Shown: positions 36,659 through 39,229 of the stretch, one piece after another
Layout of the letters: every line of letters begins with the position of its first letter
Numbering within the stretch: position 1 is the first letter of the stretch
From: Bacteroidia bacterium
Lineage (GTDB): Bacteria > Bacteroidota > Bacteroidia > Flavobacteriales > Flavobacteriaceae
Assembly: GCA_030428705.1 (NCBI GenBank)
Contig: JAUIDI010000002.1
Coordinates: 124,001-188,000 of the forward strand
DNA: 64,000 nt
Direction: 5' to 3'
Program-made: the position numbers and the translations under genes
The notes under the pieces: generated by a model
What the model saw: only the letters and a program-made list of their open reading frames with translations
What the model was told of the DNA's origin: nothing
Databases searched by the model: none

Positions 36659-37165
36659 TTACACCTGTTCAAAAGTCTTCGGACTATTTAAAGATTGGCT
36701 CAGTACCAATATGGCAGAAACCGCAAAAGTGGCGGTCATCAACATCCCTGAAAACATAACGATGTACTTCATCCAAAGCACACCGGACCACAACAGGTAA
36801 ATACCCCCGAAGGTCAATATAACGGAGAAAAAAGGTTCAACGGTCAAAAACAGTTTCAACTTTTTGGAGGCCTTGGTAATCCAGACCAGACCACCCAATA
36901 AAAAGAAAATCAACGACATTGAAAGAATATGGGTATGGACGATCGTCAACATTTCCCTTTCACTCTTTTTGAACTTCATGACCTCTGCCCCTTCATCTTC
37001 TTCATTGCCCAAATAGTTTTCTTCCATTCCCACGGGATCTGTGCTACCGGTCTCCGAAACAAAGAACAGCCCGGTAAAAAATCCGATGGAAAGAACAATT
37101 ACAAAGCAAGCGACAAAGACCCTGATTTCCATGGGAAAAGTACCCAAAAGCCCGTTGTACCGCAT
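36659..37165 (-). CDS. Four-helix membrane protein of the porin/flavin operon
   Basis: Not recognised as a named family. The 168-residue product has four hydrophobic helices: VFVACFVIVLSIGFFTGLFF, then one starting after IVHTHILSMS, one with ILTFGGIYLLWSGVLWMKY, and one with MTATFAVSAILVL. The acidic loop between helix 1 and 2 is periplasmic by charge. The HTH pair at the start of helix 2 could bind heme or metal. Its ATG overlaps the stop of the FMN-binding gene as TAATG, so translation is coupled and the two proteins probably act together. Confidence 0.7.
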   Translation of the reverse strand: MRYNGLLGTFPMEIRVFVACFVIVLSIGFFTGLFFVSETGSTDPVGMEENYLGNEEDEGAEVMKFKKSEREMLTIVHTHILSMSLIFFLLGGLVWITKASKKLKLFLTVEPFFSVILTFGGIYLLWSGVLWMKYIVMFSGMLMTATFAVSAILVLSQSLNSPKTFEQV

Positions 37166-37701: not shown

Positions 37702-37779
37702 GCGACAAATATAATTATTTGGAATTAATCTTAATAAAATGAAGTGTTTTTAATTACAATTAAACTTTGAACGCCATGG

Positions 37780-38961
37780 TTAGAACCAGACCCCGATTCC
37801 GAAGTTGAGTTGATTCTTCACACCATCATTACCCCCCAACTTGTTGCTGCGAAACTGGTAATCACCCTTTACCACGACACCTGGAGCAATATGATACGAA
37901 AGACCGGTAGTCACATCAGTCCGGTCGTATGCCTCGTTTCGCTGAAGGGCCCCATCGGTATCGGCATGCGTATCGAATTTTTCGTAGCGGACGAAAGCGA
38001 ATAATTTCTGCTTTTTTACTGTAGGCAGGAGGTTATACCCGCCCTCAACATAAAACCCTTGTAAGGCACTACCAAGATCTCTTCCCGTCACATTATTGTA
38101 CTGCTCCGTATCGCTTAAGGAGGCATGGATAAACTGACCTCTGGCCGTAAATCGCCGATACGCATAACGTGCGTCCAGACCGATCATCGAAATACCGATA
38201 TTCGTGCCATCGACTTCTTCCACGTTGTCGGCGGCCTGGGTCTTTCCGAAATAACCGGACAAACCCAATCGAAGCCCTGGAATGCCATAGTAATCCAGTT
38301 TTGTTGAAAGCGTGGGGCTGTCAACGGTGGATTTGATTCCTTTTTGACGTCCGCCCCGAAGTCCGCTCGAGCCTTGCAGGAATCCTGAAATTCCACCTTC
38401 GCCATCAGCTTCCGTCGATTTGAACCCGTTGAAGACATAAACTTGATATCCCAAGGATACATCATTGAAACGCCCGCTCACGCCCACACCGAGTTCACGC
38501 CATGTAGTCGGCACGATGGCATTGTCCATTGCCGGACGTTCCACTCCATTGAAAGTCGTGGGTTCATGATATTCATTTATTATGCCCATGGGCACCAGCA
38601 TCAAACCGCCGCGCAAGTTCACATTATTGGCCACATTATAGTTTACAAAAGCTTGTTCGACAAAGACCTCTTCCACATGTTCAAATTCAATTTCGGTAAA
38701 GAATTGTACTTTATCCGTAAATCGATACCCTAGCAACAAGACCAAACGTTGTACATCGATTTCCCCATTATCCCCCTCGGGCTGGTTGTACAACATTTCA
38801 CCATAGGCCCCGACAGTTACTTCCGAGCCGTAGTTTCCGGAAAGAATCCTTTGCGCGGAATTCAGCTGCTTTTGTGGGTCCAACATAATCGAATCGGTAC
38901 CCACCTGGGCAAAGGAAAACGTAGCAAAAAATAGGGCAAGTACGAAGTAATTTTTAAACAT
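37780..38961 (-). CDS. Outer-membrane porin (OprP/OprO-like)
   Basis: A 393-residue beta-barrel with signal peptide ALFFATFSFAQ. The body alternates hydrophobic and polar residues, ends in an aromatic residue as outer-membrane barrels do (FGIGVWF), and carries the phosphate-selective porin pattern EIEFEHVEEVFVEQAFVNY and GLMLVPMGIINEYHEP. The substrate is not predictable; iron-linked or anion uptake are options. It is the first gene of an operon with the FMN-binding protein (78-base gap) and the four-helix protein, behind a promoter flanked by palindromes. Confidence 0.87.
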   Translation of the reverse strand: MFKNYFVLALFFATFSFAQVGTDSIMLDPQKQLNSAQRILSGNYGSEVTVGAYGEMLYNQPEGDNGEIDVQRLVLLLGYRFTDKVQFFTEIEFEHVEEVFVEQAFVNYNVANNVNLRGGLMLVPMGIINEYHEPTTFNGVERPAMDNAIVPTTWRELGVGVSGRFNDVSLGYQVYVFNGFKSTEADGEGGISGFLQGSSGLRGGRQKGIKSTVDSPTLSTKLDYYGIPGLRLGLSGYFGKTQAADNVEEVDGTNIGISMIGLDARYAYRRFTARGQFIHASLSDTEQYNNVTGRDLGSALQGFYVEGGYNLLPTVKKQKLFAFVRYEKFDTHADTDGALQRNEAYDRTDVTTGLSYHIAPGVVVKGDYQFRSNKLGGNDGVKNQLNFGIGVWF

Positions 38962-38975
38962 GATAGGGTTCTTTT

Positions 38976-38996
38976 TATTTAGATTATATTTAAATA
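38976..38996. promoter_or_regulatory. Operator-like palindrome 1, in the porin leader
   Basis: A 21-base dyad with arms TATTTAGATT / ATTTAAATA, eight of ten pairs matching around a central A. It lies between the transcription start expected from the promoter and the porin ATG, so a bound protein could block elongation. Confidence 0.5.
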
Positions 38997-39010
38997 AATA
39001 ATTCGGAGCG

Positions 39011-39041
39011 CAAATTTAATGGCAATATTGAAATTGCCAAA
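39011..39041 (-). promoter_or_regulatory. Porin operon promoter, TTTG-N19-TAAATTTG
   Basis: On the minus strand TTTG (39041-39038) is followed after exactly 19 bases by TAAATTTG (39018-39011), a full match to the Bacteroidota primary promoter. Transcription should start near 39004, about 43 bases before the ATG. Confidence 0.75.
39021..39038. promoter_or_regulatory. Dyad GGCAAT-N6-ATTGCC in the promoter spacer
   Basis: GGCAATATTGAAATTGCC is a perfect six-base inverted repeat with a six-base centre, filling the spacer between the -33 and -7 elements, where a bound repressor would exclude RNA polymerase. It is unrelated to the two flanking palindromes. Confidence 0.4.
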
Positions 39042-39044
39042 CTG

Positions 39045-39065
39045 TATTTATATTAATTCTAAATA
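39045..39065. promoter_or_regulatory. Operator-like palindrome 2, upstream of the porin -33 element
   Basis: A 21-base dyad with arms TATTTATATT / ATTCTAAATA, eight of ten pairs matching. Read on the opposite strand it shares 16 of 20 positions with palindrome 1. The combined consensus TTTAGA-N5-7-TCTAAA resembles sites of metal-dependent repressors (inference). Confidence 0.5.
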
Positions 39066-39229
39066 AAGTGGAAGTTTTAACATTTGGGAAAAGTATACGC
39101 TCTCTTATGCGACCCACAAACAATCAACCAGAGCTATATGAGATTCAGGATTTTACCAAGGATACGTTGCTTTAACTTGGCTTCCATAAATATTTGAAGG
39201 AAATGCCCAAGGACCTATTTTCATGCCTA

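Follow-up and report, generated by a model that had tools for sequence, protein, structure and literature searches.

The stretch of DNA analysed here (the window, 64,000 nucleotides) carries on its minus strand an operon of three genes, specifying a porin, an RnfG-like FMN-binding protein and a small membrane protein, with one pair of palindromes around the promoter of the porin gene and a third palindrome inside the operon (Table 1). The porin is modelled, with modest confidence (mean pLDDT 63), as a 16-stranded barrel whose fold matches solved porins; sequence searches of the PDB with the porin and FMN-binding profiles yielded nothing at E <= 0.01. Of the sequences at the 77 loci listed, 18 FMN-binding and 35 third-gene ones went into alignments together with those of the window. 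GATIS is invariant in the resulting 19 FMN-binding sequences and is preceded by S in 14 (SGATIS, in the window protein and 13 further sequences) and by A in the other 5 (AGATIS). The genome also holds four ApbE genes: the three marks of ApbE flavinylation (an FMN-binding domain, a [S/T]GA[S/T]-like motif and an ApbE encoded in the same genome) are found together, and the protein is accordingly predicted to be flavinylated.

Table 1. Coordinates of the operon genes, predicted Fur boxes and promoter elements in the window
Feature	Position	Strand	Remarks
Porin gene, 393 aa	37780..38961	-	Porin_4, E 1.9e-5, 25 bits (below the cut-off of 27)
Gene for FMN-binding, RnfG-like protein, 178 aa	37165..37701	-	contains SGATIS; PF04205, E 1.1e-7; weak rnfG match
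Gene for 168-aa membrane protein	36659..37165	-	start overlaps the stop of the FMN-binding gene
Upstream predicted Fur box, TTATTTAGAATTAATATAAATAC	39044..39066	-	19-mer core 39046-39064; -38 to -60 from the predicted start
Downstream predicted Fur box, TTATTTAAATATAATCTAAATAA	38975..38997	-	5' untranslated region; 19-mer core 38977-38995; +10 to +32
Third, internal predicted Fur box	37715..37737	-	just 5' of the FMN-binding gene
-33 element, TTTG	39038..39041	-	19-bp spacer to TAAATTTG
-7 element, TAAATTTG	39011..39018	-	predicted start near 39006
Internal -7 element, TATATTTG	37706..37713	-	3 bp past the internal Fur-box core

Along the minus strand the porin promoter region runs from a box through TTTG, a 19-bp spacer, TAAATTTG and the predicted start to a second box and the porin ATG at 38961. 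The start is placed where it is because TAnnTTTG occupies -12 to -5 in Flavobacterium psychrophilum (PMC9723704). An earlier note on this DNA had described a full-consensus promoter lying between two 21-base dyads at 38976-38996 and 39045-39065. The promoter, TTTG-N19-TAAATTTG (39041-39011), is indeed the sole exact instance of TTTG-N19-TAnnTTTG on either strand of the window. The dyads read TATTTAGATTATATTTAAATA and TATTTATATTAATTCTAAATA, respectively, at exactly those positions, and their coordinates agree with the description of one as lying just upstream of the -33 element and of the other as lying past the start. Each self-pairs at 8 of 10 positions and can be extended by one base per side, which gives the best drawing, a 23-mer. 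Their likeness in opposite orientation stands (17/21), but the orientation itself is uninformative since the two also agree at 17/21 when aligned in the same orientation. The third box did not figure in that description. The downstream and internal 23-mers are each separated by 13 bp from the following ATG, and the upstream one lies ~82 bp from the porin ATG: all are within the ~100 bp of a regulated start codon that is characteristic of flavobacterial Fur boxes. The promoter spacer also holds a perfect 7-bp inverted repeat, TGGCAAT-N6-ATTGCCA (39020-39039), which is rejected as a true operator because it is missing from the same spacer in a congener (L010).

Box sequence, conservation and promoter geometry

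The three sites resemble the published Fur box ATTTAGAATTATTCTAAAT of Riemerella anatipestifer, which belongs to the same order as the source organism, Flavobacteriales: in the better orientation the upstream box agrees with it at 17/19 positions, the downstream box at 15/19 and the internal box at 16/19. The same AT-rich 9-1-9 palindrome is common to both (PMC5609570, PMC10986502). A symmetrised weight matrix made by leaving out the genus (20 sites, from other genera only) gives the downstream, upstream and internal boxes the three best scores in the window, 26.7, 26.05 and 24.55, the next-best match scoring 4.78. These 20 sites are part of a 24-site sequence-only model built from loci L009-L022, for which identical duplicates as well as L023-L027 were set aside. 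The best score among 200 dinucleotide-shuffled windows is 21.33, short of every one of the three sites, and the notion that the boxes are chance AT-rich palindromes is rejected on that ground.

Conservation was followed in two sets of relatives. A porin match was found in 26 of the 60 genomes searched (own included), some of these matches being distant, and each of 14 loci (L009-L022) has two motif-like sites, 61-73 bp apart, before the porin gene. The larger set comprises the best 80 of 543 matches; several of these repeat genomes of the 60-genome search, and its members include Maribacter, Arenibacter, Cellulophaga, Aquimarina, Winogradskyella and others, as well as records named to family or class only. 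The 300 bp upstream were scanned for the R. anatipestifer consensus at >=14/19, one locus (L154) being dropped for having only 74 bp upstream. At least two boxes are present in 67 of the remaining 79 promoters (two in 59, three or more in 8) and a single box at threshold in the other 12; none of these promoters, which represent the best 80 of 543 matches, is without a box. Dinucleotide-shuffled promoters have at least two boxes in only 22 of 1580 cases, and conservation in the orthologous promoters is thus not at a mere shuffled level. The loci are related and some genomes are repeated, so that these trials are not independent. Reversed promoters have two or more hits in 26/79 cases, and reversal is an unsuitable control: since AT-rich palindromes survive it, the box count rests on the shuffles and on fixed position.

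The pairs lie 55-78 bp apart in 67/79 promoters (again among the best 80 of 543 matches), and 65 of the 67 pairs enclose TAnnTTTG; when the bases between the boxes are shuffled, the element turns up in 799 of 13400 cases. In all 65 of these promoters the upstream box ends 26-28 bp short of TAnnTTTG, and in 58 of them the gap is exactly 27 bp. Placement of the downstream box is looser, 18-19 bp past TAnnTTTG in 43/65, with a range of 5-20. Layouts were also surveyed at 39 loci with strong sites, of which ten are porins. Seven of the non-porin loci share the 26-28 bp upstream position: two for imelysin (L040, L118), one for a plug-domain receptor (L107), one for a secreted protein (L112, not scanned), and three for lipoproteins that have DUF4856 or look like those that do (L122, scanned; L124 and L131, judged by eye).

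These facts bear on the proposal that the dyads owe their existence to chance or act in mRNA, and not as DNA operators. The sites are AT-rich, the downstream one falls within the untranslated leader, and matches survive when the promoters are reversed; the upstream site, however, lies outside the predicted transcript, yet its position is the less variable of the two and is met again at non-homologous genes, and the window shuffles never come up to any of the three sites. We consider a chance or mRNA origin exceedingly improbable.

Two other layouts were seen in the survey. In the second, one box lies 3-7 bp ahead of TAnnTTTG, as at feoA (L121, scanned; L128, by eye), at a gene for an ABM-domain protein (L117) and at others (L103, L119). 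In the third, the downstream box stands alone, for example at the TonB receptors of L039, L110 and L111. Several surveyed loci match none of these layouts or show no TAnnTTTG. The internal box of the window is an instance of the second layout, and the operon therefore carries both the bracketing and the single-box arrangement. An internal box at >=15/19 is found in 40 of the 78 readable orthologous gaps before the FMN-binding gene (2 of the 80 loci lack an FMN-binding start); as far as the TAnnTTTG element alone is concerned, it follows the internal core by 3 bp in the window and in 31 of those 40 gaps.

Strict helical phasing of the two boxes, as in a DNA loop, would agree with some of the spacings and is contradicted by others. 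Near whole helical turns there is a cluster at 72-73 bp in porins, and imelysin, DUF4856 and receptor genes have spacings of 61 or 72 bp. Spacings that break such a rule are 65-70 bp at the porins of Allomuricauda, Flagellimonas and Arenibacter, 64 at L112 and 33 at L104. Two small genomes without DtxR, G041 and G054, have two boxes before FTR1 (L075, L089, L100), 41-42 bp apart and likewise near whole turns.

Further sites and the probable regulator

When the best 150 candidates in the genome were scored with the 24-site model, nine distinct places emerged at E<1, three of them in the porin operon. Each of the other six (among the same best 150) is at, or adjoins, a gene related to iron or haem. 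An imelysin operon has a box on either side of its promoter at a spacing of 61 bp, and the upstream box of this pair precedes TAnnTTTG by 27 bp. One box each lies upstream of a TonB receptor gene (divergent from an AraC regulator, with neighbours that include DUF4198 and PepSY proteins), upstream of feoA-feoB, in the gap between an AraC regulator gene and hemA, and past the stop codon of a ferritin gene, facing a 65-aa Cys-rich ORF. Strong sites in relatives are found at FTR1, FecCD, FeoA, imelysin, DUF4856 and receptor genes. The earlier note had proposed a two-site operator for a metal-dependent repressor and had let the proposal depend on further copies near metal genes and on conservation in orthologous promoters; both have been found, and both support it. 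The boxes of R. anatipestifer are likewise located at iron-gene promoters, including those of feoAB and outer-membrane receptors, but they are listed one per gene in Table 5 of PMC5609570, whereas the window has a pair bracketing the promoter at a fixed distance and a third box next to a predicted internal promoter.

That note had left the reader of the boxes as a Fur-like or a DtxR-like protein. The genome encodes an iron-type Fur: a 159-aa protein (PF01475, 93.2 bits), its gene followed by purA (named by eye), matches 11 solved chains, of which 10 are named Fur and 1 is a peroxide operon regulator. In R. anatipestifer, the box was predicted and purified Fur is reported to gel-shift promoter fragments that hold it (PMC5609570), and likewise a rhuB promoter fragment (PMC10986502). 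Deletion of fur in the same organism raises expression of feoA and feoB, Fur being in control of feoAB (PMC10434265), and rhuH rises upon fur deletion as well as upon mutation of the Fur box (PMC11967795). A further paper on R. anatipestifer refers to the classical GATAAT box and not to this one (PMC7976709). The classical Fur box, GATAATGATAATCATTATC, shares with the window sites an inverted repeat, a location near iron-uptake genes and Fe2+-Fur as the reader; it differs in sequence, the upstream window site agreeing with it at only 8 or 9 of 19 positions depending on orientation (counted by hand).

The presence of the boxes in other genomes separates the two candidates further. PF01475 (Fur) is present in 57 of the 60 genomes and PF02742 (DtxR) in 52, the source genome being included in each count. 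All five Fur-positive genomes without PF02742 keep sites: with the best 133 candidates per genome scored under a stricter filter, matches at E <= 0.5 number 3 in G022, 7 in G037, 9 in G041, 8 in G052 and 9 in G054, strands sometimes being counted twice. PF01325 was not found in G022, G037, G041, G044, G054 or G057, while G052 has two weak partial hits, one of which is just over the cut-off together with its neighbours (26.7 bits versus 26). Among the G041 and G054 sites are the FTR1 pairs (scanned at L075, identified by eye at L089), and those of G037 include the porin; several sites or pairs in these DtxR-free genomes are near genes with no clear iron role. G044 and G057, which have neither Fur nor DtxR, yield zero matches at E <= 0.5, with one match at E 1.84 in G044 in a laxer scan. 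A 0.3-Mb genome with neither regulator (G051) has three weak matches, the best at E 0.25, and G025, G050 and G059, in which Fur and DtxR are both present, show no site at E <= 0.5 among the best 133 candidates of each.

The boxes of DtxR, IdeR and MntR are of the TTAGGTTAG type, and TTTAGA..TCTAAA resembles half of a DtxR/MntR box. It is this likeness, in the TTTAG..CTAAA outline, that makes an operator of the genome's own DtxR/MntR-family regulator, an iron or manganese repressor, worth considering, along with the wide occurrence of PF02742 noted above and sites beside dtxR in two relatives (G056 and G043). The difference is that the second G of the arm is A in the window sites. Window-type sites persist without a full DtxR: G022, G037, G041 and G054 have them with neither PF02742 nor PF01325 (the G041 and G054 assemblies being 88% and 86% complete), G052 has them with just its weak partial PF01325, and the sites are therefore not confined to genomes with a DtxR-family protein. 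The genome's own DtxR/MntR-family gene, at C14:185585 and adjoining a ZIP-like transporter gene (named by eye), has no site at threshold in the 5.5 kb around it, and the published gel shifts on this box were done with Fur (PMC5609570, PMC10986502). Judged from these sequences, DtxR is disfavoured as the reader, and we regard the DtxR/MntR reading as quite unlikely.

Another Fur-family protein, or the MerR-like iron activator MliR, might read the boxes in place of Fur. The source genome (G000) has four PF01475 matches, three of them below 46 bits, so that three further, lower-scoring family members accompany the 159-aa Fur; in Bizionia (Flavobacteriaceae) deletion of mliR lowers expression of an imelysin-like gene, a siderophore receptor and a FeoB-associated gene (PMC9478572), so that MliR could act on the same promoters. 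Against this stand the single Fur-family match in several site-bearing genomes (e.g. G007, G008, G009, G026, G033 and G034), the purA-linked Fur at all seven of the relatives' Fur loci that were looked at (7/7, purA by eye), and the papers in which it was Fur that was put to this sequence (PMC5609570, PMC10986502). Such a reader seems very unlikely. The regulator is narrowed to Fur because the Fur box of R. anatipestifer forms part of the motif and because sites persist without full DtxR; of the two candidates originally named, it is the Fur-like one that gains from these results.

A proposed role in iron uptake

The palindromes are very probably Fur boxes of the flavobacterial type placed around one promoter, with the operon under iron control through Fur; Fur binding, repression and the iron response in the source organism are what we infer from sequence. 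When iron is sufficient, Fe2+-loaded Fur dimers would occupy the box by the -33 element (centred at about -49) and the box past the start (centred at about +21), and with Fur on both, RNA polymerase could, we propose, neither settle nor leave. The third box would overlap a second, internal promoter ahead of the FMN-binding gene. When iron runs short, Fur would release the boxes, and the porin, the flavin protein and the small membrane protein would be made.

What the operon does is probably reductive iron uptake, in which the porin would admit iron and the ApbE-flavinylated protein would pass electrons. Flavinylated proteins have been tied to iron assimilation by gene neighbourhood (PMC8238504). 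The iron clusters linked to flavinylation in PMC8238504 (PepSY-, MsrQ- and P19-associated) have in common with the window an exported FMN-binding protein, the GA[S/T] motif and the iron context; they differ in that here the FMN-binding protein is paired with a porin and the 168-aa membrane protein.

Searches of Pfam and NCBIfam place this third protein in no family at E <= 0.001, and none of its Pfam scores comes close to a cut-off. Pfam searches of the 36 aligned sequences of its type give scattered weak hits, most commonly Claudin_2 (6/36, best E 8e-4). It is modelled as helical, with four long helices; H77 and H79 are invariant among the 36 sequences, and a fold search against the PDB found no match at E <= 0.001. 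No transmembrane electron-transfer partner of a known class was found beside the FMN-binding gene by Pfam or PDB fold at E <= 0.001. Given the lack of a Pfam match at that threshold, none of the five transmembrane classes described in the available part of PMC8238504 fits, and the 168-aa protein is a candidate for a new partner of flavinylated proteins. A fuller scheme can be put forward only tentatively, as a hitherto undescribed Fur-gated module for reductive iron uptake: a dedicated porin might admit ferric complexes, the ApbE-flavinylated periplasmic protein might reduce them and the four-helix 168-aa protein might supply that protein with electrons. Two Fur dimers would be clamped on the promoter at fixed positions, and the third box would allow separate tuning of the flavin part.

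The Fur box itself is already known. In the open-access literature we found no description of the paired layout, of the bracketing rule or of this operon as a Fur target, and no described role for the porin/flavin-protein operon; the operon is not recognisable in Table 5 of PMC5609570. A table in PMC5429918 has a porin among the changes under iron limitation in R. anatipestifer (value 1.02). It is a conserved, little-studied operon of flavobacteria, and iron starvation is the likely condition for its expression as well as for that of the small Cys-rich protein. Iron control in Flavobacteriaceae has so far been poorly mapped; a portable box model and a fixed promoter geometry make the Fur regulon of the family more readable from sequence.

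Other loci with predicted Fur boxes

The segment G000:C17:314000-331000 (L137) has three predicted Fur boxes and holds the imelysin operon together with PepSY_TM, DUF4198, TonB receptor and AraC genes; it is likely to be an iron island. In the AraC/hemA gap (L138 2317-2339, G000:C14:306316-306338) lies the palindrome TTATTTAGAAACGTTCTAAATAA, with perfect 10-bp arms, a possible link from Fur to haem synthesis. In G056 a strong site (L141 2489-2511) separates dtxR from a receptor-like gene that diverges from it, and a ZIP-like gene comes after dtxR; in G043 a site (L142 2345-2367) coincides with the start, as called, of a receptor-like gene just before dtxR (gene names by eye in both cases). The two sites suggest that in that family the DtxR locus is controlled by Fur.

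Ferritin is rejected as a Fur target here because its box lies past the stop codon and faces the 65-aa ORF. This Lys/Cys-rich ORF (L045, G000:C14:5267-5515), with KCCKKYKKGENKRCGNCPCFDLIKKVA at its end, has the predicted Fur box upstream and TAnnTTTG 3 bp behind the box. Of 40 genomes, the source genome among them, 11 have a match to it (L045, L229-L237); 10 of the 11 have a box at >=15/19 within 150 bp upstream, followed after 3-4 bp by TAnnTTTG in 8 of these 10. It looks like a small Fur-regulated protein.
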